DNA of 23,834 nucleotides from a virus. Position numbers and translations under genes: made by a program. Shown one piece after another: positions 786 to 20,675 of the stretch (positions within the stretch are counted from its first letter, which is position 1; every line of letters starts with the position of its first letter). The notes below the pieces were generated by a model that had not been told where the DNA came from, did no database searches, and saw only the letters and a program-made list of their open reading frames with translations. The stretch spans positions 1 through 23,834 of the IMG/VR virus record IMGVR_UViG_3300046328_000403; one strand, written 5' to 3'.

Positions 786-803
786 TGTTGTTTCCATACA
801 ACA
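786..803. promoter_or_regulatory. dyad TGTTGT-N6-ACAACA, copy 1
   Basis: A perfect inverted repeat with 6-bp arms and spacer TTCCAT. It ends six bases before the -35 box of the promoter at 810-838, so its centre is near -50 relative to the inferred start. It is one of eight copies in the window whose arms are conserved while the spacer varies. There is no useful U-tract after it, so a protein-binding operator is more likely than an intrinsic terminator. Confidence 0.75.
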
Positions 804-809
804 CTTTGC

Positions 810-838
810 TTGACACCACCATCAAACTGTAATACAAT
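810..838 (+). promoter_or_regulatory. sigma70-like promoter, TTGACA-17-TACAAT
   Basis: A perfect -35 hexamer at 810-815, a 17-bp spacer and TACAAT at 833-838 (5/6), followed by GG as in most promoters of this window. It lies 25 bases upstream of the gene at 863 and just downstream of dyad copy 1. Confidence 0.85.
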
Positions 839-862
839 GGTTCTTCAGTCACGGAGAATTAT

Positions 863-1207
863 ATGTTAATTTACGGTTATATTCCAAAATCCAAGAAACG
901 TAAAGTTTCTAAAGCCAAGAAATTACAGCACGAAGAATGGTTACTATCCATTAATTCGATGTCTACCAATTTCAGTAAAAATAAATCCACGAAGTTTTCC
1001 AAAGTAACTCCAATGTTTACCGTTCCGGCCGGTCGAGAATCTCCTAACATTGCGTCCTTGGATACTGGATTTATTGCTTGTACAAAGAAATTCGGAAATT
1101 CATATACAGGTGACAAGATTAAAGGAATTGGTACGATGCATAAAAGTAATGCTGTGCCAGTATTTACCGACAATGAAGCAAAAGAGATAGCGAGCATGAG
1201 AAGATGA
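863..1207 (+). CDS. conserved phage hypothetical protein (KGIGTMHKSNAVPVF family)
   Basis: A 114-aa basic protein with a Lys-rich N-terminus (KKRKVSKAKK), a central segment PAGRESPNIAS and a strongly conserved-looking C-terminus: YTGDKIKGIGTMHKSNAVPV, then EAKEIASMRR. I recognise this C-terminal pattern from hypothetical proteins common in T4-like cyanophages and other phages; the role is unknown to me. CGGAG at 854-858 precedes the ATG at good spacing, and the gene is first after the promoter at 810-838. Its TGA overlaps the next start (ATGA). Confidence 0.85.
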   Translation: MLIYGYIPKSKKRKVSKAKKLQHEEWLLSINSMSTNFSKNKSTKFSKVTPMFTVPAGRESPNIASLDTGFIACTKKFGNSYTGDKIKGIGTMHKSNAVPVFTDNEAKEIASMRR

Positions 1208-1362
1208 GTATTACACAAGATGAATGGGAAGAATATGAAGATTATCTTTTCGAATTGACTGATGAAGAACTAAAAATTGAGTTACAATGGTTACAATCAG
1301 TAGGTAAAGCGAAGCAAAGAGGTAGTGTAGTGTCATCCGTTGAAAATTTTACTATACAATAA
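1204..1362 (+). CDS. small acidic hypothetical protein
   Basis: A 52-aa acidic protein (SITQDEWEEYEDYLFEL, then DEELKIELQWL) that is probably alpha-helical. It starts at the ATGA overlap with the preceding stop, so it is likely translated by re-initiation. The C-terminal tail after residue 35 is low in conservation-like features. Short acidic proteins of this sort are common in phage early regions; no function can be given. Confidence 0.65.
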   Translation: MSITQDEWEEYEDYLFELTDEELKIELQWLQSVGKAKQRGSVVSSVENFTIQ

Positions 1363-1369
1363 GGTTATT

Positions 1370-1558
1370 ATGTTAAGCAAACATGAAGAAAAAGACATTT
1401 TGAGAGGCATTGATGATATTATGTTCAATATGCGGCACATTCCAGCGCAGGATGTTGCATATTTTCTTGTAAAATTCAATCCGAATCTTGCCGAAGAATT
1501 GGCCAGCGCAATTGAGCAACAAATTTTTGATAAAAATGAAGGAAAAAATCATGGATAG
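1370..1558 (+). CDS. small hypothetical protein
   Basis: A 62-aa protein, MLSKHEEKDILRGIDD at the start, mixed helical, with IPAQDVAYFLVKFNP and AEELASAIEQQI segments. An ATG at 1340 extends the frame, but 1370 is preferred because AAGG at 1361-1364 precedes it and the longer form would overlap the previous gene by 23 bases. It overlaps the next gene by eight bases. No family recognised. Confidence 0.65.
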   Translation: MLSKHEEKDILRGIDDIMFNMRHIPAQDVAYFLVKFNPNLAEELASAIEQQIFDKNEGKNHG

Positions 1559-1742
1559 TAGTAAAATTGGTTTACAAGAGCAATTAGACAAGATTGATAC
1601 GCAAATTTTTGCTTTGGCAGACAAATACGACTTCCAATCCTTGGATAATGTTGTTCGAGGTTGGGTTGCCTTGTCTGGATTCGAAAAAGACCAACAAAAT
1701 TATGCAAATTTAGCGGATTTATACAATTTTAAATCAGTTTAA
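1551..1742 (+). CDS. small hypothetical protein
   Basis: A 63-aa protein starting MDSSKIGLQEQLDKIDTQIF, with a short coiled-coil-like N-terminal helix and a C-terminal NLADLYNFKS segment. AAGGA at 1538-1542 sits about eight bases upstream of this ATG, which is why it is preferred over an upstream in-frame ATG at 1488. It is the last gene before dyad copy 2, which begins eight bases after its stop. No family recognised. Confidence 0.65.
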   Translation: MDSSKIGLQEQLDKIDTQIFALADKYDFQSLDNVVRGWVALSGFEKDQQNYANLADLYNFKSV

Positions 1743-1749
1743 TGAAATG

Positions 1750-1767
1750 TGTTGCTAAAAAACAACA
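1750..1767. promoter_or_regulatory. dyad TGTTGC-N6-ACAACA, copy 2
   Basis: Matches the dyad family with one innermost substitution (C for T in the left arm) and spacer TAAAAA. The centre lies about 60 bp upstream of the inferred start site of the promoter at 1784-1812. It sits directly between the end of one operon (1742) and the next promoter. Confidence 0.7.
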
Positions 1768-1783
1768 CCTTTACAAAAAGCAT

Positions 1784-1812
1784 TTGACGGTAAGCATTAT
1801 TTGTAGTATAAT
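1784..1812 (+). promoter_or_regulatory. sigma70-like promoter, TTGACG-17-TATAAT
   Basis: A near-perfect promoter: TTGACG (5/6) at 1784-1789, 17-bp spacer, perfect TATAAT at 1807-1812 followed by GGTTT. It drives the metalloprotease/VWA operon, whose first ATG is at 1836 with CGGAG at 1826-1830. Confidence 0.9.
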
Positions 1813-1835
1813 GGTTTCATTAAATCGGAGAACTC

Positions 1836-3995
1836 ATGGAACTAATTGAATCAAAATCACTACTTGCCAAATTAATGGCTACCGAAAACTTGACCATTGA
1901 ACAGCGCAACGTACAAACTGCCGCTTTCGATGTAAAGAATCGTATTCTTACGGTTCCTATTCTTGATAAGAATATTTCTGGTTACTTGTATGACCTTTTC
2001 ATGGGTCATGAAGTTGGCCATGCTCTCTACACTCCGTTAGAAGGCATGACTAAGGCTTACGAAGAAAAGATTCCAATGGGCATTATGAATGTATTGGAAG
2101 ATTCCCGTATTGAGCGTAAAGTCAAAAACAAATATCCTGGTATTCGTTCCTCTTTCATTCGTGCATACAAAGAATTAATCGATAAAGATTTCTTTGGTAC
2201 TGCAGGTATTGATTTAAATGATTTAAACTTTATTGACCGTGTTAACCTTTACACCAAGGGTGGTGCATCACAAGGTATCAAATTTACCGATTTTGAGAAA
2301 ACTTTGGTTGATAAAATTGAAAATACTCAATCTTATGATGATGTGATGGAAGTGGCCAGATTGGTGCAAGCATATCTCAAAGAAGAAAACGAAAAACGCA
2401 AATCCGAAACACCAACATACGAAGAAACCAATGAAGAAGCGGATGGAGAAATTGATCCGTTTGGTTATGGTGATATTGATGATGAGAATGATTGGGATGA
2501 TGAAGAAACTCAATCCAAAAAATCTAATCAACCTTCTGATGAAGGCGAAAGTGAATCAGATAAAGAACCTACCGAAGGTGAAGAATATGGAATGAATCCT
2601 GAGAATCCACACAATTCTTCTGCCGAAGATGGAATCCGTTCACACACCGATGATGCCTTCCGTAAAAATGAATCCAAGTTGTTTGCTAATGATAAGCGAG
2701 CATTTTATTATGGTAATATCCCCGATATTAATTTGAGTGAAGCAATCTTCTCATACAAACAAACTTGGACCCGATATAAAGGTGATGTTCAGCGTATTAA
2801 AGATAGTTATAATTCTCCATACGAAAATACTTTCGGTGTTGATGTTGCTAAATTTACTAAGATGCGTAATGATGCCAAGAAAGTTGTTGGTTACTTGTCC
2901 AAAGAATTTGAACTCCGTAAAAATGCCGAGCAAATGAAACGTGCATCAGTTGCTAAAACTGGTGAATTGAATATGTCCAAGATTTATGGTTATCAATTGA
3001 TGGATGATATTTTCAAAAAGGTTACAGTTGTACCTAATGGTAAATCACATGGTCTTGTAATGTTCTTAGATTGGTCAGGTTCTATGCACCATCACATTGA
3101 GAACACCATGAAACAATTGATTAACTTGGTGATGTTCTGTAAGAAGGTAAACATTCCTTATGAAGTATATGCCTTTAGTTCAGAATTTGATGAACCATAC
3201 ACACCTAAAGTTGTAGTTGGTGATATTGTTATGCATGGTTTTAAATTGATTAATATCTTGTCCAGTAAAATGACTGCTTCTGAATTTACATATGCTGGTT
3301 CAGCATTGGTTAATATGGCACAACAACGTGGTTGGAAACCAGGTTGGTTTCAGATGGGTGGAACTCCACTAAATGAAACTGTTATTGCAGCAACTAAGAT
3401 TATTCCAGAATTTCAGAAACAATATAAACTACAAGTGGTGAATACAGTATTCTTAACCGATGGTGAAGGCCAAAGTTTAAGAAATGTATATACAAAATAC
3501 CCAAATGGTTATATTAGTTCTGGTTATAATAATCCAGAACTCGATGGTAACGGTGGTTATAATATTGAGAAAAGCTTTGTAATGCGTGACCCAATTACTA
3601 AACATGAGGTACGAGTTGATTATGCTCGTGGTCGTGAATTGACAGGACACTTTATTTCTATTCTAAAGAAAAGAACTGGTTGTAATATTGTTGGTTTCTT
3701 TGTATTATCCGGTCGTGAATTTGGTCGTGAAGTTTATAACTTCTTTCCAAGAGCCGCCAATATGGACAAATATAAATCTGAGTTCCGTAAGAACAAATGT
3801 TTAACTGTTACTAATGCTGGTTACGATGAATATTATTTACTCCGTTCAGAAGGCCTAGATACAGATGATGATGTTGAATTTGTTGTGAAAGAAAACGCAA
3901 CGACCCGTGGCTTGGTTTCCGCATTTAGTAAATTTGCCGGTAACCGTTTGTCTAACCGTGTTGTATTAAACCGATTTATTGGAATGATTGCATAA
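1836..3995 (+). CDS. CobT-like VWA-domain protein with N-terminal zinc-metalloprotease-like motif
   Basis: This 719-aa protein is the largest in the window. Residues 58-62 read HEVGH, an HExxH zinc-protease-type motif in MGHEVGHALYTP; 29 residues on, LEDSRIER (87-94) offers Glu/Asp ligands. Residues about 190-265 form a very acidic, probably disordered linker. The C-terminal half is a von Willebrand A domain: MIDAS motif DWSGSM at 412-417, Thr510 in GGTPLNE, and TDGE at 541-544. Similar proteins in T4-like phages are annotated as peptidase or CobT-like. VWA proteins of the CobT/MoxR-partner kind act with AAA+ ATPases, and such an ATPase is encoded at 17161-18336. Whether it cleaves protein, helps metal insertion into a corrin, or remodels a host complex cannot be told from sequence. 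Confidence 0.85.
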   Translation: MELIESKSLLAKLMATENLTIEQRNVQTAAFDVKNRILTVPILDKNISGYLYDLFMGHEVGHALYTPLEGMTKAYEEKIPMGIMNVLEDSRIERKVKNKYPGIRSSFIRAYKELIDKDFFGTAGIDLNDLNFIDRVNLYTKGGASQGIKFTDFEKTLVDKIENTQSYDDVMEVARLVQAYLKEENEKRKSETPTYEETNEEADGEIDPFGYGDIDDENDWDDEETQSKKSNQPSDEGESESDKEPTEGEEYGMNPENPHNSSAEDGIRSHTDDAFRKNESKLFANDKRAFYYGNIPDINLSEAIFSYKQTWTRYKGDVQRIKDSYNSPYENTFGVDVAKFTKMRNDAKKVVGYLSKEFELRKNAEQMKRASVAKTGELNMSKIYGYQLMDDIFKKVTVVPNGKSHGLVMFLDWSGSMHHHIENTMKQLINLVMFCKKVNIPYEVYAFSSEFDEPYTPKVVVGDIVMHGFKLINILSSKMTASEFTYAGSALVNMAQQRGWKPGWFQMGGTPLNETVIAATKIIPEFQKQYKLQVVNTVFLTDGEGQSLRNVYTKYPNGYISSGYNNPELDGNGGYNIEKSFVMRDPITKHEVRVDYARGRELTGHFISILKKRTGCNIVGFFVLSGREFGREVYNFFPRAANMDKYKSEFRKNKCLTVTNAGYDEYYLLRSEGLDTDDDVEFVVKENATTRGLVSAFSKFAGNRLSNRVVLNRFIGMIA

Positions 3996-4222
3996 TGAAT
4001 AGAGAGAGATTGGCTACCTTCATAGGAAATTTTGCTCAAAAAATGTCAGATATATATTATGACGGTGAGTTAAATGAATATTATGTCCATTACAGAGAAG
4101 TTCAAAAAGAACCTGGTGCGGGTGACTTGGGCATGATAGAATATTTTAACTCTGAAGAACAAGCTGAACTGGCAGCTAGAAAATATGCTTTTGGAGAGAA
4201 ATATGGAAATAGCAATGTCTAA
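3995..4222 (+). CDS. small hypothetical protein
   Basis: A 75-aa protein with NFAQKMSDIYYDGELNEYYV near the N-terminus and an acidic/alanine helical C-terminus (SEEQAELAARKYAFGEKYG). It is coupled to the VWA gene by a one-base overlap (TAATG) and overlaps the next start by about 20 bases, consistent with one operon. No recognised family; the co-transcription with the VWA protein is the only clue to its role. Confidence 0.7.
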   Translation: MNRERLATFIGNFAQKMSDIYYDGELNEYYVHYREVQKEPGAGDLGMIEYFNSEEQAELAARKYAFGEKYGNSNV

Positions 4223-4412
4223 ATTTATGAATGGCAACAAAAGAGCCGATGTATTAAAGACTGATGGTGGTTATACTATCAATATGTATTTGGATGACAA
4301 GTTCTACCAAAAACGAAATGTTTTTAATATTGATGATGCTGAGGCACTAGCGGAAGATTTTGTTTTAGAAGAAGGTGATTCTGGACCTAAATTTCTGAAC
4401 GAAAATGCCTGA
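4203..4412 (+). CDS. conserved phage hypothetical protein
   Basis: A 69-aa protein containing NKRADVLKTDGGYTINMYLD, then DDAEALAEDFVLEEG and a C-terminal PKFLNENA. The pattern (basic start, GGYxxxMYLDDKxYQxR, acidic helix, NENA end) is familiar from hypothetical proteins of T4-like aquatic phages. The start at 4203 is chosen because GGAG at 4193-4196 has proper spacing; the ATG at 4215 (MSKF) is an alternative that matches my recollection of relatives. It overlaps genes on both sides. Confidence 0.72.
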   Translation: MEIAMSKFMNGNKRADVLKTDGGYTINMYLDDKFYQKRNVFNIDDAEALAEDFVLEEGDSGPKFLNENA

Positions 4413-4778: not shown

Positions 4779-5005
4779 TACCAAAATATAAAATACCAGA
4801 ATCTATTAAACTGATATTTTTTATATTGAGTTTTTCCACTATCTATGGTTATATTTCTGATGATGATTACCATAAAGCATTTGACATTCCTGAATTAGTC
4901 CGTTATAATTGTGATATGTTAGTTGGTGGTTGGCATCCGGATGTTCCGGTAAAAGTAATTGAAGAATGTAGAAAAAAGAAAGCGAATGATGTTAAAACCT
5001 ATTAA
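4775..5005 (+). CDS. membrane-anchored conserved phage hypothetical protein
   Basis: A 76-aa protein with an N-terminal hydrophobic segment (LIFFILSFSTIYGYI, residues about 13-27) that could be a signal anchor. The polar domain ends in the conserved-looking motif YNCDMLVGGWHPDVPVKV and ECRKKK. I recall similar CxMxxGGWHPDVP segments in T4-like aquatic phages with no known function. The two cysteines could form a disulfide if the domain is periplasmic. It overlaps groES by 17 bases. Confidence 0.72.
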   Translation: MIPKYKIPESIKLIFFILSFSTIYGYISDDDYHKAFDIPELVRYNCDMLVGGWHPDVPVKVIEECRKKKANDVKTY

Positions 5006-5249
5006 AAAGAATATTATTGTCCAAGTCATTGAGAAAGAGAAGGTCACTTCTTCTGGTATCATTCTCAAATCTGCGGATCCTGCCGAAGTTAATAAGGCTA
5101 CTGTATTAAAAATTGGTAGTGAGGTTACTTTGATTGAAGAAGGCCAATTAATTCTTCCTAACTGGAACAAAGCAGTTCCAACCAAGTTTGATGGTGAAAG
5201 TTATTTCATTGTGAATGAAGATGATGTGGTGTTGATTTTCGAAGATTAA
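4989..5249 (+). CDS. groES: GroES-like co-chaperonin
   Basis: An 86-aa protein that reads as a chaperonin-10: LKPIKKNIIVQVIE at the start, a mobile-loop segment with the GroEL-binding tripeptide-like IIL at residues 24-26 (EKVTSSGIILKSAD), the ATVLKIGS strand, and a C-terminal FIVNEDDVVLIFED matching the family ending. Length is slightly shorter than bacterial GroES (about 95). In T4 the functional analogue gp31 replaces host GroES to fold the major capsid protein; a similar role is inferred here. Start choice: adjacent ATGs at 4986 and 4989 both have a weak AAGAAAG upstream; an upstream in-frame start at 4959 would give a non-GroES lysine-rich extension. No GroEL is present in the window. 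Confidence 0.9.
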   Translation: MLKPIKKNIIVQVIEKEKVTSSGIILKSADPAEVNKATVLKIGSEVTLIEEGQLILPNWNKAVPTKFDGESYFIVNEDDVVLIFED

Positions 5250-7334: not shown

Positions 7335-7352
7335 TGTTGTTTTTTTACAACA
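7335..7352. promoter_or_regulatory. dyad TGTTGT-N6-ACAACA, copy 3
   Basis: A perfect copy with spacer TTTTTT. It follows the end of the 5963-7272 operon by about 60 bases and is about 170 bases upstream of the nearest promoter, so it differs in placement from the six promoter-proximal copies. Confidence 0.65.
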
Positions 7353-7520: not shown

Positions 7521-7548
7521 TTGACACTCCGGCCAGTTCCTGTATACT
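7521..7548 (+). promoter_or_regulatory. sigma70-like promoter, TTGACA-16-TATACT
   Basis: Perfect -35 at 7521-7526, 16-bp spacer ending CCTG, and TATACT (5/6) at 7543-7548 followed by GGTTTTATT, matching the shared downstream pattern of the other promoters. It gives a leader of about 63 bases before the ATG at 7618; dyad copy 4 lies in that leader. Confidence 0.87.
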
Positions 7549-7583: not shown

Positions 7584-7601
7584 TGTTGTTCCGATACAAC
7601 A
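7584..7601. promoter_or_regulatory. dyad TGTTGT-N6-ACAACA, copy 4, in a leader
   Basis: A perfect copy with spacer TCCGAT, identical over all 18 bases to copy 5. It lies downstream of its promoter, centred near +37, and ends seven bases before the ribosome site AAGGAG (7608-7613). A bound protein here could block transcription, or the RNA hairpin could affect translation. Confidence 0.72.
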
Positions 7602-7617: not shown

Positions 7618-7956
7618 ATGGAATTAGCTGGTTTATCTATCACGGAATTAAAGCGTATGCTGGCGCTTGTGAATCACGACCTCAAAATGAATAAGCCCAC
7701 TATGAGCCGTGCTGCCAAGCGTGCCTCTAAGGCTGTCGCTCCGATTATCTCGGAATATGCTGAATGTAATATTATTGCTCAGAAATTCACTGGTACCAAA
7801 GCATTATCTCCAGTACATAATGCTAAACTCAAAGCGGATATTCAGATCCAGCGTGATATTCTCGATTTTATCCATAATGGCGGCAATATTATCACAAGAA
7901 AATCCCGCAAGAATATCAAGCCATTAACCATTACCAATAGTATTATATCATTATAA
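7618..7956 (+). CDS. basic helical hypothetical protein
   Basis: A 112-aa basic protein with a strong ribosome site (AAGGAG) and its own promoter. The N-terminal half is helical (LSITELKRMLALVNHDLKM), then a basic SRAAKRASKAVAPIISEY segment, and a C-terminal KSRKNIKPLTITNSIISL. The basic helices would suit nucleic-acid binding, but there is no recognised domain. It starts the odd region 7618-9217, where I recognise no gene. Confidence 0.68.
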   Translation: MELAGLSITELKRMLALVNHDLKMNKPTMSRAAKRASKAVAPIISEYAECNIIAQKFTGTKALSPVHNAKLKADIQIQRDILDFIHNGGNIITRKSRKNIKPLTITNSIISL

Positions 7957-8242: not shown

Positions 8243-8583
8243 CCATATAGTAGTATTATAATGGGCTCTGAAATATACCGAGTCCATTAGTAATATTATT
8301 AAGCTATTGATATTATTAGAGTTTTTATTATTGAGATTATCTGAGGATGCTTAGGAATACCTTTTAGGATTAACTAGGAACCACGGAGAATCACAGGAAG
8401 AAACTAAGAGCCATTCATAGCACCATAGTCCCGACTGGTATCCCGACTATATTACGGAAAGTAATAAAGGTTATAACTGGTGGTTATTAACGGAGTGCTT
8501 AGTGTATATTATAATGATTAATATAGTGGATTTTCTATTATATTGCTTATTATAATGTATATTAAATTAAAAGGAGTATTATT
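8243..8583. other. 341-base non-coding region
   Basis: Very AT-rich with many stops in all frames; only frames under 20 codons are present. It contains a weak GC-containing hairpin (GGGCTC/GAGTCC near 8263-8285), a repeated word TCCCGACT (8429-8436 and 8441-8448) inside an ATAGTC/GACTAT inverted repeat, and a possible promoter at 8487-8515. A strong AAGGAG ends it just before the gene at 8584. Confidence 0.5.
8487..8515 (+). promoter_or_regulatory. possible promoter, TTAACG-17-TATAAT
   Basis: TTAACG (4/6) at 8487-8492, 17-bp spacer and perfect TATAAT at 8510-8515, upstream of the small-gene cluster starting at 8584. It lacks the GG that follows the -10 box in the stronger promoters, and there is no dyad nearby. 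Confidence 0.42.
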
Positions 8584-8962: not shown

Positions 8963-9051
8963 TGGTTGATAAGGTGATTATCCCTATTATTGCTATTATT
9001 GATGTGGTATTTACTGTTATTATTATTAATTTACATTATAAGGTTATATGA
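8962..9051 (+). CDS. single-helix membrane micro-protein 1
   Basis: A 29-aa ORF, MVDKVIIPIIAIIDVVFTVI at the start: almost all Ile/Val, a single transmembrane helix with a short charged N-terminus. TAATG overlap with the gene before and ATGA overlap with the next. Too short for ordinary prediction, but the coupling and the repeated pattern across three ORFs support translation. Confidence 0.5.
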   Translation: MVDKVIIPIIAIIDVVFTVIIINLHYKVI

Positions 9052-9116
9052 TTATATTATCAGCGTTTGTATTATCTAATATTATGGTAGTTTATTTTAT
9101 GAAAGGTTGTAAATGA
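9048..9116 (+). CDS. single-helix membrane micro-protein 2
   Basis: A 22-aa ORF (MIILSAFVLSNIMVVYFMKG, then CK), a hydrophobic helix with a positively charged C-terminus, as expected for an N-out single-pass peptide or the reverse by the positive-inside rule. It starts in the ATGA of the upstream stop and ends in the ATGA of the next. The shortest of the three; it could be a chance frame, but the chain of overlaps argues otherwise. Confidence 0.42.
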   Translation: MIILSAFVLSNIMVVYFMKGCK

Positions 9117-9217
9117 GATTATTCTATAATGTATTAGGATTAATTGTTTGTGGTGTAGGTGTATTATTTGTTTTTAATATAGTAATGGTTAGTTTATATT
9201 ACCATTTTTACTTATAA
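9113..9217 (+). CDS. single-helix membrane micro-protein 3
   Basis: A 34-aa ORF (MRLFYNVLGLIVCGVGVLFV, then a hydrophobic stretch ending LYYHFYL), one transmembrane helix with a basic residue at position 2 and an aromatic C-terminus. It starts in the ATGA overlap with micro-protein 2 and ends nine bases before dyad copy 5. Small phage membrane peptides can act in lysis, superinfection exclusion or membrane-enzyme control; which, if any, is unknown here. Confidence 0.48.
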   Translation: MRLFYNVLGLIVCGVGVLFVFNIVMVSLYYHFYL

Positions 9218-9225
9218 TGGTGGTA

Positions 9226-9243
9226 TGTTGTTCCGATACAACA
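9226..9243. promoter_or_regulatory. dyad TGTTGT-N6-ACAACA, copy 5
   Basis: A perfect copy with spacer TCCGAT, located right after the last micro-protein gene and 48 bases upstream of the -35 box of the promoter at 9292, with its centre near -91. Its right half also overlaps a second possible hairpin, CCGATAC (9233-9239) with GTATCGG (9253-9259). Confidence 0.75.
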
Positions 9244-9270
9244 CTTGTGGAAGTATCGGCCAATCATAGT

Positions 9271-9309
9271 TATTGGAATATGCCATATTGATTGTGGTCT
9301 ATTCCAATA
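9271..9309. repeat. 10-bp inverted repeat bracketing a -35 box
   Basis: TATTGGAATA (9271-9280) and TATTCCAATA (9300-9309) are exact reverse complements separated by 19 bases. The -35 box (9292-9297) lies between them and the right arm is inside the promoter spacer, so a repressor or DNA-bending site is possible. Confidence 0.6.
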
Positions 9310-9319
9310 CCTGTATAAT
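9292..9319 (+). promoter_or_regulatory. sigma70-like promoter, TTGTGG-16-TATAAT
   Basis: TTGTGG at 9292-9297, 16-bp spacer ending ACCTG, perfect TATAAT at 9314-9319 then GGTATTTTT. The spacer carries the dyad GGT(C)T-N6-ATACC at 9296-9311. It is very similar to the promoter at 16719. It drives the GP88-like gene at 9371. Confidence 0.87.
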
Positions 9320-9370
9320 GGTATTTTTAGTGGTCATCTTGATTGTAATTTTTAAGAAAAGTGAGTTTAT

Positions 9371-10120
9371 ATGAATTTGTTATCAGTCGGTAATCCCAAG
9401 ACTTTAAAGGGAATGAAGCAAGGGTATAATACCTACATCCTGCACCTTGCACCTGCTTCATTATCTGGTCATAATACCTGTCCTAAAGCAACGGAAGGCT
9501 GTAAAACTGCCTGCTTGAATACGGCTGGTCGTGGCGGTATGTTTAAGCGTGGTGAGAATACCAATACTATCCAGAAAGCACGGATTCGTAAAACTCAGTT
9601 ATTCTATAATGACCGTGACCAGTTTATGGCACTATTAGTAAAAGATATTAACTTAGCGATTAAGCAGTCCGCTAAAGCAGGTCTTATCCCTGTTATCCGT
9701 TTAAATGGTACTTCCGATATTGCTTTCGAAAAGTATAATGTAACGGTTGACGGTATTACCCACTTGAATATCTTCTTTGCTTTCCCTGATATTCAATTCT
9801 ATGACTATACAAAGGTTCTAGGTCGTAAAGTAAATGGTATTGATAACTATTCACTAACATTTAGTGCGGCTGATGGTAATGATGCTGATGTATATGCTGC
9901 CATTCAGCAAGGTTACAATATTGCTACTGTATTTGGTATCAAGAAAACCTTGCCAATGCCTGAGTTTTACAATGGATTACCAGTATTTAATGGTGATGAA
10001 AGTGACCTCCGCTTCTTGGATCCAAAAGGTGTGGTTGTCGGACTATATGCCAAAGGTAAGGCTAAGAAGGATACAAGTGGTTTTGTTAAGTTTCCACAAT
10101 TTATGATGAAGGCGGCATAA
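9371..10120 (+). CDS. GP88 / DUF7227-like conserved phage protein
   Basis: A 249-aa protein. The N-terminus has LSVGNPKTLKGMKQGYNTYI, then LHLAPASLSG and a cysteine cluster NTCPKATEGCKTACL (Cys37, Cys44, Cys48), followed by NTAGRGG. This CPxAxxGCxxACL-xxxGRGG signature is what I recall for the 'gene product 88' family first named in mycobacteriophages and seen widely in phages. A long alpha/beta region with IPVIRLNGTSDIAFEKY follows. The cysteines may bind a metal or Fe-S cluster; the biochemical role of the family is not known to me. It has its own promoter and the next gene is coupled by TAATG. Confidence 0.82.
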   Translation: MNLLSVGNPKTLKGMKQGYNTYILHLAPASLSGHNTCPKATEGCKTACLNTAGRGGMFKRGENTNTIQKARIRKTQLFYNDRDQFMALLVKDINLAIKQSAKAGLIPVIRLNGTSDIAFEKYNVTVDGITHLNIFFAFPDIQFYDYTKVLGRKVNGIDNYSLTFSAADGNDADVYAAIQQGYNIATVFGIKKTLPMPEFYNGLPVFNGDESDLRFLDPKGVVVGLYAKGKAKKDTSGFVKFPQFMMKAA

Positions 10121-10630: not shown

Positions 10631-10821
10631 TGTGGGATAGAACCGAAGCGATTGATACCTTAATCAATGACGATATGAATACCGTTGAGAATGATGATGG
10701 TTGGTATTTGAGTAGTTTATTAATTAATGGTTTTAAAGGGTATGCCAATTATACCGATGAAGAATTAATGAATGAATTAATGGAAAGAGATATTTCCATC
10801 CTTTTTGGAGAAACTGAATAA
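10630..10821 (+). CDS. small acidic hypothetical protein
   Basis: A 63-aa strongly acidic protein (MWDRTEAIDTLINDDMNTVE, then a middle WYLSSLLINGFKGYANY and an acidic helix TDEELMNELMERDI). The segment YxxxTDEELxxEL is typical of small phage helical proteins. One-base overlaps on both sides (TAATG). No known function. Confidence 0.68.
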   Translation: MWDRTEAIDTLINDDMNTVENDDGWYLSSLLINGFKGYANYTDEELMNELMERDISILFGETE

Positions 10822-10994
10822 TGAATACATGGGAATTCGTGGTACTTGAATTAAAATCACTCCAAAAAGGTTTTGAAGATTATCAACCAATTGTGGAATT
10901 GTTTGTTGAACAAAAATTGTTGTGTGGATACAACATTATTAAAAGTAAGGACCAAGTATATCGACTCCAAGATGCCAAAATGCTTGAGGTATAA
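10821..10994 (+). CDS. small hypothetical protein containing dyad copy 6 in its coding sequence
   Basis: A 57-aa protein (NTWEFVVLELKSLQKGFEDY at the start, YNIIKSKDQVYRLQDAKMLE near the end). Two unusual things: codons for QKLLCGYN contain the full TGTTGT-N6-ACAACA dyad at 10918-10935, and the -35 box of the next promoter (10984-10989) lies in its last codons. The protein may therefore be constrained by regulatory DNA. TAATG overlap upstream. Confidence 0.65.
   Translation: MNTWEFVVLELKSLQKGFEDYQPIVELFVEQKLLCGYNIIKSKDQVYRLQDAKMLEV
10918..10935. promoter_or_regulatory. dyad TGTTGT-N6-ACAACA, copy 6, inside a gene
   Basis: A perfect copy with spacer GTGGAT, 48 bases upstream of the -35 box of the promoter at 10984. 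This is exactly the same distance as copy 5 from its promoter. Conservation inside a coding sequence argues for a DNA-level function. Confidence 0.72.
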
Positions 10995-11038: not shown

Positions 11039-11317
11039 ATGAAATTTACAAATATTGCAAAAATTGGTGACATTATCCGTGCATATGATTTTAAACCATG
11101 TGCCGGTCGTGATGATGCCTTTATTGATGGTATTGTGGAAGATGCCAACAATACAGAAATGGGTTACACCGCTTATAAGATTACAGTAACCGCTGACAAG
11201 TTTACAAAGTATGAAACCAAAGCAAAAAAGGAAAATCGTGTAGGTCGTATCTTCTTTGTACCGCATCAAATTAGTTTTATGGAGTTTAATCACCGTATTG
11301 TGAATTTATCGGAATAA
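11039..11317 (+). CDS. conserved phage hypothetical protein (GDIIRAYDFKP family)
   Basis: A 92-aa protein with TAGGAG at about 11028-11033. The N-terminus KFTNIAKIGDIIRAYDFKPC, the AGRDDAFIDGIVED segment, TEMGYTAYKITVTADKF and the C-terminal HRIVNLSE form a beta-rich, small-barrel-like pattern. I recall closely similar proteins (VGDVIRAYDFKPxAGRDD) in T4-like cyanophages. Function unknown. Its own promoter and the terminator at 11325-11361 make it a nearly single-gene unit. Confidence 0.82.
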   Translation: MKFTNIAKIGDIIRAYDFKPCAGRDDAFIDGIVEDANNTEMGYTAYKITVTADKFTKYETKAKKENRVGRIFFVPHQISFMEFNHRIVNLSE

Positions 11318-15228: not shown

Positions 15229-16125
15229 ATGAAAATTGCTTTAGCGTCAGATGTTCACCTTGAATTTGGTGACCTCGTTATAAAGAATGAAGAAAATGCC
15301 GAAGTTTTAATACTGAGCGGCGATATTTGCACAGCTAAAGTTTTCAAACACAAACCCAAAGAACGAGCAATGGTTCGTGATTTCTTTAAACGGTGTTCAT
15401 TCGAATTTCCTCATGTGGTATATGTGATGGGTAACCACGAGCATTATGATTTTGATATGCGTGATACTTACGAACGATTGAAGTTTGAATTGGCACCATT
15501 TGAGAATATCCATTTATTGGAAAAAGAAACATGGGAACATAACGGCATCACCTTTGTTGGTGGTACATTATGGACTGATATGAATAAAGGTGATTCGTTG
15601 ACTTTGTGGCATTCTGGTCAGCGTATGAATGACTTTAGATTAATCAAGAATAGTAATCGTACCACACACCATAAGAATGTAATCTATGCCAAGAATCCTG
15701 ATGGTTCTGGTATGCACTTGAAAGATTCTGATGGTAATTTGGTTGTTGAGAGAATTGACCATTATGAGAAGCCATCAAGATGGTCAGCAGAAGATTCCGT
15801 GGAAGACCACAAGAAAATGGTTGACTATATCAATATCGTTACTCAGGATAAAACCAAGAGTTATGTTGTGGTGACACACCATGCACCAAGTGGTGAGAGT
15901 GTTGCTGAGGCATACAAAGGCGATACATTAATGAATGGTGCGTTTCGTTCTGATTTAAGTGAATTCATTTTAGATAGACCACAGATTAAAATGTGGACTC
16001 ATGGACATATGCACAATATGAGTAATTATTGGATTGGTGAGACCAGAGTGGTTTGTAATCCTCGTGGTTATATCAAATATGAAAGTTGTGCAAATTTCTT
16101 TCAATTGAAATATATGGAGGTTTGA
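15229..16125 (+). CDS. calcineurin-like metallophosphoesterase
   Basis: A 298-aa enzyme with the full set of metallophosphoesterase motifs: SDVHLEFG (Asp8, His10), LSGDIC (Asp32), GNHEHY (Asn69, His70, Glu71), VTHHAPS (His217) and THGHMHN (Gly259, His260, His262). These bind two metal ions and cleave phosphoester bonds; the substrate (protein, nucleotide or nucleic acid) cannot be read from the sequence. Family length is typical. The ATG at 15229 is preferred to a GTG at 15217, since the latter overlaps the previous gene and has no site, though AAGAAA before 15229 is weak too. An insert between the GNHE and THHAP motifs (residues about 110-200) is long and charged. Confidence 0.9.
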   Translation: MKIALASDVHLEFGDLVIKNEENAEVLILSGDICTAKVFKHKPKERAMVRDFFKRCSFEFPHVVYVMGNHEHYDFDMRDTYERLKFELAPFENIHLLEKETWEHNGITFVGGTLWTDMNKGDSLTLWHSGQRMNDFRLIKNSNRTTHHKNVIYAKNPDGSGMHLKDSDGNLVVERIDHYEKPSRWSAEDSVEDHKKMVDYINIVTQDKTKSYVVVTHHAPSGESVAEAYKGDTLMNGAFRSDLSEFILDRPQIKMWTHGHMHNMSNYWIGETRVVCNPRGYIKYESCANFFQLKYMEV

Positions 16126-16684: not shown

Positions 16685-16702
16685 TGTTGTACCAAAACAA
16701 CA
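16685..16702. promoter_or_regulatory. dyad TGTTGT-N6-ACAACA, copy 7
   Basis: A perfect copy with spacer ACCAAA, beginning immediately after a stop codon (16682-16684) and 16 bases upstream of the -35 box of the promoter at 16719. Centre near -60. Confidence 0.75.
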
Positions 16703-16718: not shown

Positions 16719-16746
16719 TTGTGGTATTCCAGGATACCTGTATAAT
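16719..16746 (+). promoter_or_regulatory. sigma70-like promoter, TTGTGG-16-TATAAT
   Basis: TTGTGG at 16719-16724, 16-bp spacer ending ACCTG and perfect TATAAT at 16741-16746 then GGTTTGTATTG. The spacer holds a perfect GGTAT-N6-ATACC at 16723-16738. It drives the operon starting at 16779 that includes the CobS/MoxR-like ATPase. Confidence 0.88.
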
Positions 16747-16778
16747 GGTTTGTATTGAGTGAGAGAGAGAGGAACTAT

Positions 16779-16994: not shown

Positions 16995-16996
16995 TT

Positions 16997-17164
16997 ATGG
17001 AAAAATATTTTGAAGAATTTGAGTATTTAAATACTCTGCGTGAATCTGGTGTTACTAATATGTTTGGTGCTTCACCGTATTTACAAGAAGCATTTGATAT
17101 TAGTAAGAACGAAGCAAGAACAATTTTAGGACTATGGATGAATTCATTTAAGGAAACAGTATGA
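16997..17164 (+). CDS. small conserved phage hypothetical protein (SGVTNMFGASPYL)
   Basis: A 55-aa helical protein: EKYFEEFEYLNTLRESGVTN then MFGASPYLQEAFDISKNEAR and a final ILGLWMNSFKET. The sequence is highly typical of a short phage family (ESGxTNMFGAxPYLxxxF-xxxKxEARxxLxxWMxSF). It may bind a partner through its helices; the role is unknown. It ends in the ATGA that starts the ATPase gene, so the two are coupled. Confidence 0.78.
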   Translation: MEKYFEEFEYLNTLRESGVTNMFGASPYLQEAFDISKNEARTILGLWMNSFKETV

Positions 17165-18336
17165 ACAAGAACGCTACCGCATTTATCGTTGCCGCAGAAG
17201 AAATCTTTGGTTCAGAACCAATTTTAACCCGTGATGATATTACCAGAGTTGTGAATGAATCTGGTGCCCCGTATCCATATTGGCTGGTTACTAAATCAGA
17301 GTTCCGTTATGACCGTGGACAATACAAAGTTCCACCTTCAGGTATTGTAAAGAAATCCAAAACTATTGTAAAGAATATGACTGAAGATTGTAAAGAACCT
17401 GAAACAGAAATGGCATATGCTCAACCTGCTCAAGTGTTAGAGTTCCGTCAACCAAAATTGATTGATGAGTCCGATAATGCCGTACCTGAAAAGTATGAGA
17501 ATTATGTACCATTTGGTTTCTTTAAAGATATGCGTAATATTGTATCGTCTAAGATGTTCTATCCTGTATTCGTTACCGGTTTATCAGGCAACGGCAAGAC
17601 CTTGATGGTCGAACAGGTATGTGCGGAGTTGAATCGTGAATGTATCCGTGTGAATATCTCAGTTGAGACCGATGAAACTGACCTACTAGGCGGTCCTACA
17701 TTGGTGAATGGTAACGTGGTCAATCGTGATGGTCCTGTATTACAGGCTATGAAGAAAGGTGCCGTGCTGTTAATCGATGAGGTCGACCGTGGTTCTAATA
17801 AGTTGATGTGTTTGCAAGGCATCATGGAAGGTAAACCACATTACAATAAGAAATCGGGTGAGATGGTTTATCCGAAGGCAGGATTTAATATCATTGCAAC
17901 GGCAAATACTAAAGGCCAAGGCAGTGATGAAGGCAAATATCTTGCTCAAATCTTAGATTCGGCTTTTCTTGAACGCTTTCCTATCACCGTAGAGCAAGAA
18001 TTTCCCGATATGAAAACTGAGAAAAAAATCTTGGCACCACTCATTGAAGATAAAGCTTTTCTTGAAAATTTATGCCAATGGGCAGATGTAATTCGCAAGA
18101 GTTATATGGAAGGTGCTGTTGATGAAGTAATTTCAACACGAAGATTGGTGCATATTGCAAAAGCATTCAACATTTTTAATGATAAAATGAAAGCTATTAC
18201 ATTGTGCGTTTCAAGATTCGATGAAGAAACCAAATTAGGTTTTCTTGACCTTTACAGTAAAGTTGATGCTACGGTTGAAAGTCCAGCCAACACAGCATCG
18301 GTTGTAACTAATACTGAAATGCCAGAATATAAGTAA
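17161..18336 (+). CDS. cobS: CobS/MoxR-like AAA+ ATPase
   Basis: A 391-aa ATPase. Walker A is GLSGNGKT (140-147), Walker B VLLIDE (202-207), a sensor segment IIATANTKGQGSDEG (244-258) and an arginine-finger-like SAFLERF (267-273), with a preceding NISVETDETDLLGG loop typical of the CobS/MoxR clade. T4-like cyanophages carry a very similar gene annotated cobS (aerobic cobalt chelatase small subunit) next to or apart from a VWA protein; here the VWA partner candidate is at 1836-3995. The first 110 residues are a phage-type extension that may bind DNA or partner. Cobalt-chelatase activity is not proven by sequence; a MoxR-like remodelling role is equally possible. It overlaps its neighbour by four bases. 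Confidence 0.9.
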   Translation: MNKNATAFIVAAEEIFGSEPILTRDDITRVVNESGAPYPYWLVTKSEFRYDRGQYKVPPSGIVKKSKTIVKNMTEDCKEPETEMAYAQPAQVLEFRQPKLIDESDNAVPEKYENYVPFGFFKDMRNIVSSKMFYPVFVTGLSGNGKTLMVEQVCAELNRECIRVNISVETDETDLLGGPTLVNGNVVNRDGPVLQAMKKGAVLLIDEVDRGSNKLMCLQGIMEGKPHYNKKSGEMVYPKAGFNIIATANTKGQGSDEGKYLAQILDSAFLERFPITVEQEFPDMKTEKKILAPLIEDKAFLENLCQWADVIRKSYMEGAVDEVISTRRLVHIAKAFNIFNDKMKAITLCVSRFDEETKLGFLDLYSKVDATVESPANTASVVTNTEMPEYK

Positions 18337-18349
18337 AACTCTAAGAACG

Positions 18350-18357
18350 CATAAATA
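18350..18357 (+). promoter_or_regulatory. T4-late-like promoter word CATAAATA
   Basis: CATAAATA differs by one base from the T4 late consensus TATAAATA and sits 25-32 bases before the ATG of the GIY-YIG gene, where no sigma70-like promoter is visible. Late expression of homing endonucleases is known in T4 (I-TevI), which makes the match plausible. Confidence 0.45.
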
Positions 18358-18381
18358 TATCATGTGTTCTTGGAGAAAAAA

Positions 18382-18918
18382 ATGAAAATTTATAAACTGG
18401 TCAATAATGTAAATGGTGATTTCTATGTGGGTAAGACAACCCAATCGTTAAACAAAAGGTTGTCTAACCACAGAAACACCGCCAACCATGGTTCAACCTA
18501 TTATTTGCATAATGCAATGAGGTACTATGGTTACAATAATTTTACTATTGAATTGCTTGAAGAAGCAACAAATGAACAAGAATTAAATGAAAAAGAAATT
18601 CATTGGATATCTGAATTAAAACCAACATACAATATGCATGAAGGTGGCCAAGGAGGTAGTTTACCTGGTCGTCCAGATATTGTTGGTGAAGCAAGAGAAA
18701 ACTGGTTGAGTGGTTTTAATAGAAAAGGCAAAACACCTTGGAACAAAGGTAAAACCGGACTAGGTGGTTATAAATGGTCTCAACCTATGTCGGATGAGAA
18801 ACGAAAACAAATTTCTGAATTTCAGAAACAAAATCGTGCTCAATGTATTCATTGTGGTATTGTTACCAATCCAGGAAATATTAGTAGATATCATAATGAT
18901 AAGTGTGGTAAGAAATAA
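18382..18918 (+). CDS. GIY-YIG homing endonuclease-like protein
   Basis: A 178-aa protein. The N-terminal GIY-YIG nuclease domain has KIYKLVNNVNGDFYVGKTTQ (residues 2-21, GIY as IYK, YIG as YVG), catalytic-type Arg in NKRLSNH (about 24-30), and a Glu near 71 (LNEKEIHWI). A GKTPWNKGKTG segment at 113-123 looks like a NUMOD3-type DNA-binding module and is followed by SDEKRKQISEFQ. The C-terminus (CIHCGIVTNPGNISRYHNDK, then C) is a CxxC-H-C zinc-finger-like end. Similar stand-alone enzymes are the Seg proteins of T4. It was probably inserted between the ATPase operon and the promoter at 18943. GGAG at 18372-18375 decides the start. Confidence 0.88.
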   Translation: MKIYKLVNNVNGDFYVGKTTQSLNKRLSNHRNTANHGSTYYLHNAMRYYGYNNFTIELLEEATNEQELNEKEIHWISELKPTYNMHEGGQGGSLPGRPDIVGEARENWLSGFNRKGKTPWNKGKTGLGGYKWSQPMSDEKRKQISEFQKQNRAQCIHCGIVTNPGNISRYHNDKCGKK

Positions 18919-18940
18919 AGTGGCAAACTTGAAGTATACT

Positions 18941-18962
18941 GGTTGCCATTTAAGTGGTAACC
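18941..18962. promoter_or_regulatory. dyad GGTTGCCA-N6-TGGTAACC over the -35 box
   Basis: Eight-base arms with one mismatch and a six-base spacer (TTTAAG). The left arm contains the -35 box (18943-18948) and the right arm ends in the spacer just before TGTATAAT. A protein bound here would block RNA polymerase. Confidence 0.55.
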
Positions 18963-18970
18963 TGTATAAT
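18943..18970 (+). promoter_or_regulatory. sigma70-like promoter, TTGCCA-16-TATAAT
   Basis: TTGCCA (5/6) at 18943-18948, 16-bp spacer ending AACCTG, perfect TATAAT at 18965-18970. Unlike the other strong promoters it is not followed by GG and has no TGTTGT dyad nearby. It drives the winged-helix gene at 19030. Confidence 0.83.
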
Positions 18971-19029
18971 CAGGTATGTAGTTCCTTTAAGTAGTTTTAT
19001 ATTATGTTTAATTTGATTAGGAGTTTTAA

Positions 19030-19350
19030 ATGGCTTTAACAGTTCGCAAAGGTAAGGTAAACCGTCATGAGAAAATTACCCAAGTATTATTGAGTGGCAA
19101 ACCTGTATCACCACAGGAGATTGCTGATGTATTTAAAGGCACAAACCAAGAGGCAGTTCTATATCGTTTGTCTACCAACATCTATAACATTCGTAAAGAT
19201 GGTGGTATCGTCAAAGTGATTAAGAGTGGTCGTAAGGTAACAGGTTATCAATTGGTTAACTATTCAGAGTTCGATGCTAATGGTCGTTATCAAGGTCCAG
19301 TTAAGACTGCTCCATTAGTTAAGTCAACCCCTGAAGTTGTAACTGCTTAA
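19030..19350 (+). CDS. winged-helix DNA-binding-like phage protein
   Basis: A 106-aa protein with TAGGAG at 19018-19023. Residues about 13-72 read as a winged helix: EKITQVLLSGKPVSPQEIAD (helices 1-2), a recognition-helix-like segment EAVLYRLSTNIYNIRK (41-56), and a beta wing GGIVKVIKSGRKVTGYQLVN. The N-terminus MALTVRKGKVNRHEKI is basic. Similar proteins are common in T4-like cyanophages. It is a candidate phage transcription regulator, perhaps acting on the dyad at its own promoter or on the TGTTGT dyads; that link is inference only. Confidence 0.78.
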   Translation: MALTVRKGKVNRHEKITQVLLSGKPVSPQEIADVFKGTNQEAVLYRLSTNIYNIRKDGGIVKVIKSGRKVTGYQLVNYSEFDANGRYQGPVKTAPLVKSTPEVVTA

Positions 19351-19362
19351 TAAGGAGATATC

Positions 19363-19662
19363 ATGGAAATTCAAACTAGAGTTCGTCACGCTGAAGTTAG
19401 TAACATTGTAAAGATTTCTAAAGGCAAACGCCAAGAGATTTTGAGAAACAGCAAAAAGAATAAAGGTGGTTATGGTGTTTCTCAAATGGTTCGTGAGTTA
19501 CAAGTAGATGATGGATTTTTCGTGATGTGTGAAAACCAAGACCGAAAATTCTCTCATGTGTATACTGTAGCGAAAGAAGCTGGAATTCCTGTAACCGTTG
19601 TAGCAGGACAAGATGAAAATGGCAAAAAAGGTTTTTGGATTCTCGAAGCAACAAACATTTAA
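19363..19662 (+). CDS. conserved phage hypothetical protein
   Basis: A 99-aa basic protein with a good AAGGAG site about 19352-19357. The N-terminal EIQTRVRHAEVSNIVKISKG is basic, followed by GGYGVSQMVRELQVDDGFFV and a beta-rich C-terminus (FSHVYTVAKEAGIPVTVVAG, then GFWILEATN). The GYGxSQxxRxLxVxDxFF pattern is familiar from phage hypothetical proteins and looks like a small nucleic-acid-type fold. It probably shares the promoter at 18943 with the winged-helix gene. Confidence 0.75.
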   Translation: MEIQTRVRHAEVSNIVKISKGKRQEILRNSKKNKGGYGVSQMVRELQVDDGFFVMCENQDRKFSHVYTVAKEAGIPVTVVAGQDENGKKGFWILEATNI

Positions 19663-19668
19663 GTTTTA

Positions 19669-19708
19669 TGTCGCCGCAGCCGTTGGGAAACGCCGTAAGT
19701 CGGTGACA
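19669..19708 (+). ncRNA. GC-rich structured RNA element, type unknown
   Basis: Between two genes, a 40-base patch much richer in GC than its surroundings folds as TGTCGCCG (19669-19676) with CGGTGACA (19701-19708), 8 pairs including one G-U, enclosing CGTT-GGGA-AACG (19681-19692), a four-pair stem with a GNRA-type tetraloop. It starts six bases after a stop codon and ends 17 bases before the next ATG. It has no U-tract. It could be a cis-regulatory RNA, ribozyme-like element or processing site; I do not match it to a named class. Confidence 0.4.
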
Positions 19709-19725
19709 CCACTATAAAGTAAAGT

Positions 19726-19905
19726 ATGATTACATATACTATTTTTGGTATTATTTTGATTGCTCTTATTGCTTTGATTGCAGATAAAGTAATGAAGATT
19801 AAAATGCTTGAAGAAGAATGTGCAGCAATGCGTGAACAGATGTACCAATCCGATCCCGATACTGCTGGTTATGGTATCAATGCTATTAAAGGTAAAAAGA
19901 AATGA
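19726..19905 (+). CDS. small membrane-anchored coiled-coil protein
   Basis: A 59-aa protein: an N-terminal membrane helix (ITYTIFGIILIALIALIADK), a short charged coiled coil (KIKMLEEECAAMREQM) and a polar tail (SDPDTAGYGINAIKGKKK). No strong ribosome site; AAAG just upstream is weak. The structured element at 19669-19708 lies in its leader. ATGA overlap with the next gene. No family recognised. Confidence 0.65.
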   Translation: MITYTIFGIILIALIALIADKVMKIKMLEEECAAMREQMYQSDPDTAGYGINAIKGKKK

Positions 19906-20117
19906 AATATATTGCAAAACCAAGATTGTTTAATTACACTCACTCAAAAGAATTTGATGATGTAGTTGATGCTATTAAGTATTTGAATGAGTACATGAGT
20001 GCTAAAGAAGGTGACCATTCAGATTATGTGTTTATTGCACCATCATTATCAAAGAAACAATTAAAGAAATCGATTGAAGAATATGTTGGTATTGGTAAAT
20101 TGGAAATCATGGCATGA
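19902..20117 (+). CDS. small hypothetical protein
   Basis: A 71-aa protein, KYIAKPRLFNYTHSKEFDDV then DAIKYLNEYMSAKEGDHSDY and a lysine-rich helix SKKQLKKSIEEYVG. Mixed alpha/beta, soluble. The ATG is in the preceding stop (ATGA) and the next gene starts in its ATGA. No family recognised. Confidence 0.67.
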   Translation: MKYIAKPRLFNYTHSKEFDDVVDAIKYLNEYMSAKEGDHSDYVFIAPSLSKKQLKKSIEEYVGIGKLEIMA

Positions 20118-20656
20118 GTTTGAAGTTACTTTGGCCTACTCCCGTATGGGAGATTGAAACGCCTGAGTTGGCAGATATCGTTGCGCCTTTGTTACATGAG
20201 ATTAAAACTACACCACCTGATCCAGAAAGTTTGTTCAAGATAGATTTGCCTGAAGCGAGTAAATTTGTTAAGATGTTAAAACCTATTGTGAATGATGCCA
20301 TGAAAGAAGGTGGATATCCGTGGGAATACAATAAATTATTATGGGGTCGTGCAGTTCGTATGACACAAGGTAATTGGGATTCACCACACATACACCTTGC
20401 ACCAATGTTAGTTGGAGTATTTTACTTGCAAGTACAAAGAGGTCATGGTGATTTGTTTTTGGTACCTAGTTCAGGTAATTCTGGATTTACTACACATCAT
20501 GATGGTATGAAAGGTACAAGATTGTATCACCAAATTGAAGCTAAAGAAGGTAAATTGGTTCTAATGCCAGCAGACTTGGCACATTTTGTATTGCCCAATA
20601 CACTACCATTACCACGATATTCAATAGCACTAAATTTTGAAATGAATGCACTATAA
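20114..20656 (+). CDS. 2-oxoglutarate/Fe(II)-dependent oxygenase-like protein
   Basis: A 180-aa protein of the small phage 2OG-Fe(II) oxygenase type. It starts LKLLWPTPVWEIETPEL (the usual TPVW opening), then a helix region, a double-stranded beta-helix with SPHIHLAPMLVGVFYLQV (His92 and His94), DLFLVP, KLVLMPADLAHFVLP (His157) and PRYSIALNF (Arg168). The His-x-His...His set and the later Arg fit iron and 2-oxoglutarate binding. The classic motif is HxD...H, so His94 in place of Asp should be noted. Many T4-like cyanophages have such proteins; the substrate is unknown. It overlaps the preceding gene by four bases. Confidence 0.85.
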   Translation: MSLKLLWPTPVWEIETPELADIVAPLLHEIKTTPPDPESLFKIDLPEASKFVKMLKPIVNDAMKEGGYPWEYNKLLWGRAVRMTQGNWDSPHIHLAPMLVGVFYLQVQRGHGDLFLVPSSGNSGFTTHHDGMKGTRLYHQIEAKEGKLVLMPADLAHFVLPNTLPLPRYSIALNFEMNAL

Positions 20657-20657
20657 G

Positions 20658-20675
20658 TGTTGTAATTTGGCAACA
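20658..20675. promoter_or_regulatory. dyad TGTTGT-N6-GCAACA, copy 8
   Basis: Matches the family with one innermost change (G for A in the right arm) and spacer AATTTG. It begins one base after the stop codon at 20656 and ends five bases before the -35 box of the promoter at 20681. Centre near -48. Confidence 0.7.

Follow-up and report, generated by a model that had tools for sequence, protein, structure and literature searches.

Dyads and promoters in the window

The stretch of DNA analysed here, referred to as the window, is the virus record IMGVR_UViG_3300046328_000403 of IMG/VR (23,834 bases, G+C 36%), and probably represents part of the genome of a T4-like phage. It carries eight copies of an 18-bp dyad, TGTTGY-N6-RCAACA, six of which have perfect arms. 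The dyads stand upstream of sigma70-like promoters, mostly ones with the sequence TATAATGG, and the dyad is likely to be a phased DNA operator that would act as an activator site, whichever protein binds it. A larger IMG/VR record, G001 (121,872 bases), has a cobS gene 100% identical to that of the window and contains the same dyad sites. The whole window has no near match in the phage collection searched, and the major capsid protein is closest there to those of Methylophilales phage Melnitz (65.5%) and Pelagibacter phage Mosig (63.8%; family Kyanoviridae).

Behind six of the eight dyads there is a TATAATGG or TACAATGG, the gap being 29, 39, 70, 70, 38 and 27 bp for dyads 1, 2, 5, 6, 7 and 8, respectively; all features given here are on the + strand. 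Dyad 1 (786..803, exact) is the one followed by TACAATGG, has a sigma70-like promoter, TTGACA-17-TACAAT, behind it at 810..838, and precedes an open reading frame (ORF) at 863-1207. Dyad 2 (1750..1767), whose left arm reads TGTTGC, is followed by the promoter TTGACG-17-TATAAT at 1784..1812 and then by a peptidase gene (phrog_459) at 1836..3995, the product of which we take to be CobT-like. Dyad 5 (9226..9243, exact) precedes a gene of the GP88 family (PF17338) at 9371..10120 and is adjoined on its upstream side by a second TATAATGG. Dyad 6 (10918..10935, exact) is inside ORF 10821-10994, and the TATAATGG that follows it belongs to ORF 11039-11317. Dyad 7 (16685..16702, exact) comes immediately after a stop codon and precedes small ORFs and cobS, which encodes a CobS-like AAA ATPase (phrog_249) at 17161..18336. 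Dyad 8 (20658..20675), with the right arm GCAACA, lies before the TATAATGG of ORF 20697-20873. The two exceptions both have exact arms. Dyad 3 (7335..7352) has a weak -10, AATAAT, at 102 bp with a -35 match of 2/6, and dyad 4 (7584..7601) is in the 5' untranslated region (UTR) of ORF 7618-7956, downstream of a promoter at 7521-7548.

An earlier reading of this DNA made without database searches (the sequence-only reading) had listed these eight copies, and every coordinate in it is correct, as is its division into six with exact arms (786, 7335, 7584, 9226, 10918 and 16685) and two, at 1750 and 20658, that deviate at the innermost arm base only. The rarity that it expected of such a pattern is borne out by 100 dinucleotide shuffles of the window, which give a mean of 0.01 exact matches compared with the 6 found. 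Its count of seven intergenic copies and one genic copy, that at 10918, holds if short, doubtful ORFs are ignored. A ninth copy at 15864, with one mismatch, was missing from the list; it lies inside a metallophosphoesterase gene where no promoter is seen, and looks like the product of chance or codon constraint.

Spread among relatives, promoter class and helical phasing

With CobS as the query, 66 loci were fetched, 50 with a CobS identity of at least 69% and 16 with less than 60%. The dyad occurs with no more than one mismatch in 46 of the 50, a count that includes coding copies of the type at 15864, and exactly in 31; none of the 16 loci has it with up to one mismatch. Within these loci, few exact arm matches have any other inner gap between 0 and 14. 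An IMG/VR scan that allowed inner gaps of 0-20 and promoter gaps of 18-48 gave at least 120 stretches and, among the matches listed, 121 unique combinations, 81 of which have an inner gap of 6 and no more than 5 any other single gap. When dyads with 5-bp arms are searched for de novo, TGTTG-N8-CAACA is at the top in G001 (12 copies versus 0.13 expected) and G006 (13 versus 0.19), joint top in G018 (10 versus 0.03) and one of the leading dyads listed for G002, G016 and G017; in G008, G011, G014, G015, Melnitz and HTVC008M it does not rank among them. Five of the 14 records searched whole (G010, G013, G014, G015 and G020) have no dyad with up to one mismatch, of which G014 and G015 tell little because they mainly cover that side of cobS on which G001 has few dyads. 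G020, whose copy of the winged-helix protein described below is the most diverged (59%), shows no clear dyad ahead of its promoters that could take the place of this one. Among the named relatives Melnitz, Mosig, HTVC008M, AG-345-F15, DLP6 and S-SKS1, none of the six has an exact copy and three have one-mismatch copies. Melnitz (MZ577097) has 17 copies of another dyad, TTGTT-N5-AACAA, versus 0.43 expected; it was dropped, as promoter-like sequence is present at only 2 of the 17 places and the rest look coding.

Six records were examined in detail (G001, G002, G006, G017 and G018 whole, and G016 minus its last 498 bases), and each contains 4-10 sites of the strict form TGTTGY-N6-RCAACA, 43 altogether. 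The first ORFs behind unique dyad sites include those for the CobT-like peptidase (22), members of the ORF-11039 family (19), GP88 (16), an ATPase-like protein assigned by eye (16), CobS (15), the ORF-16755 family (14), the ORF-863 family (13) and the winged-helix protein (6).

Promoters near these sites were scored over the -10, the -35 and a GG that follows the -10 (maximum 20, cut-off at least 17) at distances of 15-114 bp. A promoter of this quality is found near 33 of the 43 sites and near 44 of 1750 control positions. A first, weaker definition (-10 match of at least 5/6 and -35 match of at least 3/6) finds promoters at 41 of the 43 sites, but also at 980 of the 1750 controls, and reliance is therefore placed on the score of at least 17, the count of 41 carrying little weight. 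At the 41 sites that have any promoter, the best -35 match is between 3/6 and 6/6. In the 50 clade loci the GG tracks the dyad: of the sigma70-like promoters there, 41 of 74 with the GG have a dyad versus 11 of 102 lacking it (p=1.5e-10). Since many other sigma70-like promoters in these genomes have neither the GG nor the dyad, the dyad promoters are a subclass.

The distance from the dyad to the -10 steps by helical turns, with values of about 28, 38, 48, 59, 70 and 80 bp. For the 81 gap-6 cases among the matches listed in the IMG/VR scan, the distance from the dyad end to the -10 is 25-31 in 55 cases, 34-40 in 25 and 43 in one, with none elsewhere in the range of 18-48. The chance matches listed for a control scan of bacterial genomes are spread over 18-48, and 65 of these 123 are within 25-31 or 34-40, compared with 80 of 81 viral ones. 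Phase windows that cover 21 of 100 distances, and that were chosen after inspection of the data, hold 32 of the 33 promoter-linked sites in the six records, the sole outlier being at 67, versus 10 of the 44 controls. Across all viral loci there are 201 unique pairs in which a dyad with no more than one mismatch lies at most 110 bp from TATAATGG, and 181 of the pairs have a downstream ORF, in 39 families; many of the paired loci stem from the 18-48 scan, which favours short gaps and not a phase. With one distance per family, R is 0.56 at a period of 10.5 bp and p is about 5e-6 over the 39 families, taken as independent. Homologous genes occupy different steps: the gaps are 28-30 or 38-40 bp for CobT homologues, mostly 70 or 37-38 for GP88 homologues (with single cases of 25, 27, 29 and 80), and 27-28, 37-39, 70, 80 and 96 for the ORF-11039 family. 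When distances of 0-110 bp are allowed, no exact dyad is less than 25 bp from TATAATGG, and therefore no exact dyad covers the -35. A few imperfect copies do overlap it, one with one mismatch at 19 and two with two mismatches at 22.

Nature of the site and candidate binding proteins

Changes within the arms were counted in 213 unique phased sites with up to two mismatches, a limit that still permits one compensatory change. The consensus pair at arm pairs 2 to 5 is kept in 203 to 210 of the 213 sites. The inner pair changes to C.A in 40 sites, U.G in 14 and C-G in 4, and the outer pair to C.A in 14 and U.G in 6; overall, 88 sites are altered on one side alone and 4 in a compensatory manner. 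The spacer of the 105 exact sites tends towards W-Y-N-N-R-W, which is symmetric about the centre and gives the consensus TGTTGT-W-Y-NN-R-W-ACAACA. This pattern of arms and spacer fits the one predicted for a dimer operator, and not that of an RNA helix. The promoter-distal arm is more tolerant than the proximal one, with 54 versus 20 changes at the inner and outer pairs (a comparison of related sites that carries no p value), and such tolerance would fit a proximal subunit that touches the polymerase.

The sequence-only reading had proposed either a dedicated operator or a shared RNA hairpin that defines a phage regulon. The operator and regulon are sustained by the enrichment in relatives, the fixed gap, the promoter class and the phasing, and the hairpin gives way before the excess of one-sided over compensatory changes. 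The gene strand could form a weak fold of about -5 to -6 kcal/mol, and the dyad often comes immediately after a stop codon and ahead of a promoter, an arrangement that would also suit a promoter-plus-terminator cassette of the PeSL type. An RNA hairpin or terminator of either kind is nevertheless very improbable and was rejected, because the one-sided changes are joined by an inner pair at which C.A is commoner than U.G, by a tract of at least five T in the next 8 nucleotides at only 7 of 213 clade sites (in keeping with the earlier remark that no U-tract follows), by an Rfam scan of the window with no match above the gathering score, and by helical phasing to a downstream promoter, which would be meaningless for the 3' end of an RNA. 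Chance or recent copying of a repeat can be practically dismissed. The copies at 7584 and 9226 do share a spacer and a few flanking bases, but these explanations are contradicted by the varied spacers and flanks elsewhere, by an enrichment that extends through the clade to a CobS identity of 69%, and by the prominence of gap 6. The sequence-only reading had itself named a lack of enrichment in relatives, or flanks typical of a paralogous repeat, as outcomes that would count against it; enrichment was found and such flanks were not. An operator for a phage repressor or a dual regulator is a more serious alternative, yet still an unlikely one. In support of it, the 5'-UTR arrangement of dyad 4 is kept in one gene family at L008:827 and G017:136513, each dyad being downstream of a TATACTGG or TATAATGG promoter, TATAATGG also lies just upstream of the dyad at 9226, and GalR-like action from -60 is known. 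The other promoter-linked sites of the window and nearly all of those in the scans, however, are wholly upstream of the -35 and phased.

If the dyad is an activator operator, a homodimeric transcription factor would bind it, each subunit on one 6-bp arm, at a position ahead of the -35 and centred near -50, -60, -81 or -92 (with the -10 beginning at -12). The factor would touch the host RNA polymerase from one face of the helix in a class I-like manner, probably at the alpha C-terminal domain, and would turn on the promoter class marked by TATAATGG as a regulon in this clade of T4-like phages. The 5'-UTR sites at 7584 and in its L008 and G017 homologues may instead be repressive; the outer base is C in two of these three dyads. 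Whereas the enrichment, the fixed inner gap, the symmetry, the promoter link, the helical phasing and the lack of RNA covariation are shown by the data, the dimer, activation rather than repression and the contact with alpha are inferred from them.

Several observations weigh against this model or parts of it. The sign of the regulation is read from the position of the sites alone. Two of the eight window sites misfit, dyad 3 having no good promoter and dyad 4 being in a 5' UTR, and the conservation of the latter arrangement suggests repression or another role there. In the six records, 10 of the 43 sites lack a promoter with a score of at least 17. The sites are related and the Rayleigh p value assumes that families are independent, periods of 8 to 12 likewise give small p values because the modes are few, and the bacterial control has modest peaks of its own at 25-26 and 36-37, to which homologous loci contribute. 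For the winged-helix protein as the binding factor, its gene has a dyad upstream in only 7 of 65 regions (up to one mismatch; 4 exact), and 8 of 63 loci with the gene, all of them fragments, have no dyad with up to one mismatch.

This winged-helix (wHTH) protein of 106 residues, encoded at 19030..19350, is the best phage-encoded candidate for binding the dyad, and we tentatively place it ahead of other proteins as the putative binder. It has a weak match to HTH_20 (E=0.008, below the cut-off), and its structural model (mean predicted local distance difference test score 74; blocks of residues 11-90 at 65-91) contains helices and a two-stranded wing. Many of its best Foldseek matches in the PDB are winged-helix regulators, none with E <0.001. 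The helix-wing segment is nearly invariant among 31 sequences. No match to the protein was found in the phage collection at E 1e-5 or in seven named phage records including T4. The gene is present in 48 of the 50 loci with a CobS identity of at least 69%, the other two (L007 and L014) ending before its position, and in none of the 16 under 60%; this co-occurrence with the dyad is confounded by descent, and the case for the protein as the predicted binder is circumstantial. In many wHTH promoters (for example in L362, L377, L378 and L388) a TTGCCA -35 is overlain by a different palindrome, GGTTGCCAACC, which has the GTTG/CAAC half-sites of the dyad at another spacing and is possibly an autoregulatory site. 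A gene for a GIY-YIG homing-type endonuclease (18364-18918) lies between cobS and the wHTH gene.

Alternatively, the phage could have hijacked a host activator of the CRP/FNR family, a sub-case of the DNA operator in which a host protein would bind the dyad. This is ranked after the wHTH protein and is somewhat unlikely. In its favour, the inner TTG-N8-CAA shares the FNR-type spacing and the positions -60, -81 and -92 resemble CRP class I registers, and a CRP-type helix-turn-helix (HTH; PF13545) was not found in the five clade records searched (0 of 7 records overall, with 14 of 14 control genomes positive). A hijacked host activator of this kind has been proposed for NtcA in T4-like cyanophages, where 1-16 sites per genome, 8.9 on average, are reported (PMC3037559), near the 4-10 found here. 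Against it, the dyad is confined to one clade as searched (exact in 0 of 6 named relatives and in 0 of 16 loci with a CobS identity <60%), and the matches listed from bacterial genomes are scattered in unrelated bacteria, a listing from which the host may be missing.

Other proteins are weaker candidates. A second winged-helix protein of the clade (PF14090; G001:40453) is found in 5 of 7 clade records and below the cut-off in 1 of 7 outside records, and is considered weaker because its gene has relatives in Melnitz and HTVC008M (33-40%). ORF 7618-7956, with a dyad in its 5' UTR, was not found at E 1e-3 in the dyad-bearing records G006, G016 and G018, which makes its product an improbable regulator. 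The MotA DNA-binding domain (PF09158) was found in 0 of 7 records (5 of the clade, which are possibly fragments, and 2 relatives), with a T4 control at 7e-71, and a Fis-type HTH (PF02954) in 0 of 7 with 9 of 14 controls positive. The Pfam scans were run on 65 ORFs of the window and on 51 of the 122 other small genes of G001 (25 of 44 families listed for the latter), and a further DNA-binding protein may have been overlooked by them.

Comparison with known systems

No description of the dyad site was found in the literature searched, whose coverage leaves most subscription papers outside. The statement of the sequence-only reading that it knew of no described T4-like system with this site calls for caution: palindromic sites for host NtcA, of a different sequence, GTA-N8-TAC, are known to be repeated in T4-like cyanophages (Sullivan et al. 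2010, PMC3037559). These are the closest in form. As with the dyad, a T4-like genome has a number of such palindromes, here serving an activator that is said to further a variety of phage functions, and 8 bp separate the inner triplets; the NtcA sites differ in that the triplets are GTA-N8-TAC rather than TTG-N8-CAA and that NtcA is a known host protein; the phasing and the promoter subclass found here are not mentioned in the part of that paper available (PMC3037559). In the T4 MotA/AsiA system, as described by Nolan et al. 2006 (PMC1524935), middle promoters have a Mot box, GCTT, at -30 to -27 and little similarity to a -35. Both systems define a promoter class by a phage-specific element together with a sigma70-type -10 (PMC1524935). 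The conserved element here is an upstream dyad combined with a -35 rather than a Mot box, for which no dedicated scan was made, and the MotA domain was not found in the five clade records.

The dyad promoters also resemble three kinds of element from other settings. PeSL promoter-terminator motifs reportedly occur in T4-like phages (described by Comeau and coworkers in 2014), where cassette recombination is said to shuffle genes. Common to both is an intergenic palindrome with a sigma70-type promoter behind it (here at 33 of 43 sites versus 44 of 1750 controls), whereas the dyad appears to have no terminator features in its sequence, shows no RNA covariation and is phased to the promoter. Bacterial class I activators such as CRP bind a dyad upstream of the -35 on one helical face, with positions that step by turns. 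That phasing with the promoter is shared, and the differences lie in the sequence and in the site near -50 that is common here. The TyrR box, TGTAAA-N6-TTTACA, and the PpsR site, TGT-N12-ACA, are 18-bp dyads with the same TGT-N12-ACA geometry and a different inner arm, and the Fis-type HTH was not found in the phage records searched.

These comparisons bear on the open question of how pre-late genes are timed in T4-like phages without MotA. In the Melnitz paper no middle promoters could be identified, and divergence too great for detection is named as one possibility (PMC9004378); a middle consensus was not found in RB49, RB43 and Aeh1 (PMC1524935). It is conceivable, though this goes a little beyond even the tentative case for the wHTH protein, that a T4-like clade in which no MotA was found has its own second promoter class, switched on by the wHTH protein (19030-19350) acting at TGTTGT-N6-ACAACA from one helical face. 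This would be a separate solution to the middle mode, and in some genomes the regulator would belong to the set of genes that it controls. With a clear phased operator, a defined promoter class and a handful of candidate proteins, the question of timing can be tested directly.

Three further features were seen. In Sulfurovum genomes (L223, L254, L265, L285, L291, L310 and L333) there is a recurrent palindrome, of the form GGTGTTGT-N6-ACAACACC(CTAC), which is probably a repeat like the repetitive extragenic palindromic (REP) elements or miniature inverted-repeat transposable elements (MITEs), unrelated to the phage dyad. In a phage that is gene-dense elsewhere, window positions 8243-8583 and 8963-9370 hold no convincing ORFs and gave no match to tRNAs or Rfam families. 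A GroES-like co-chaperonin of the phage is encoded at 4959-5249 (Cpn10 match from a joint scan, with the ORF assigned by eye).

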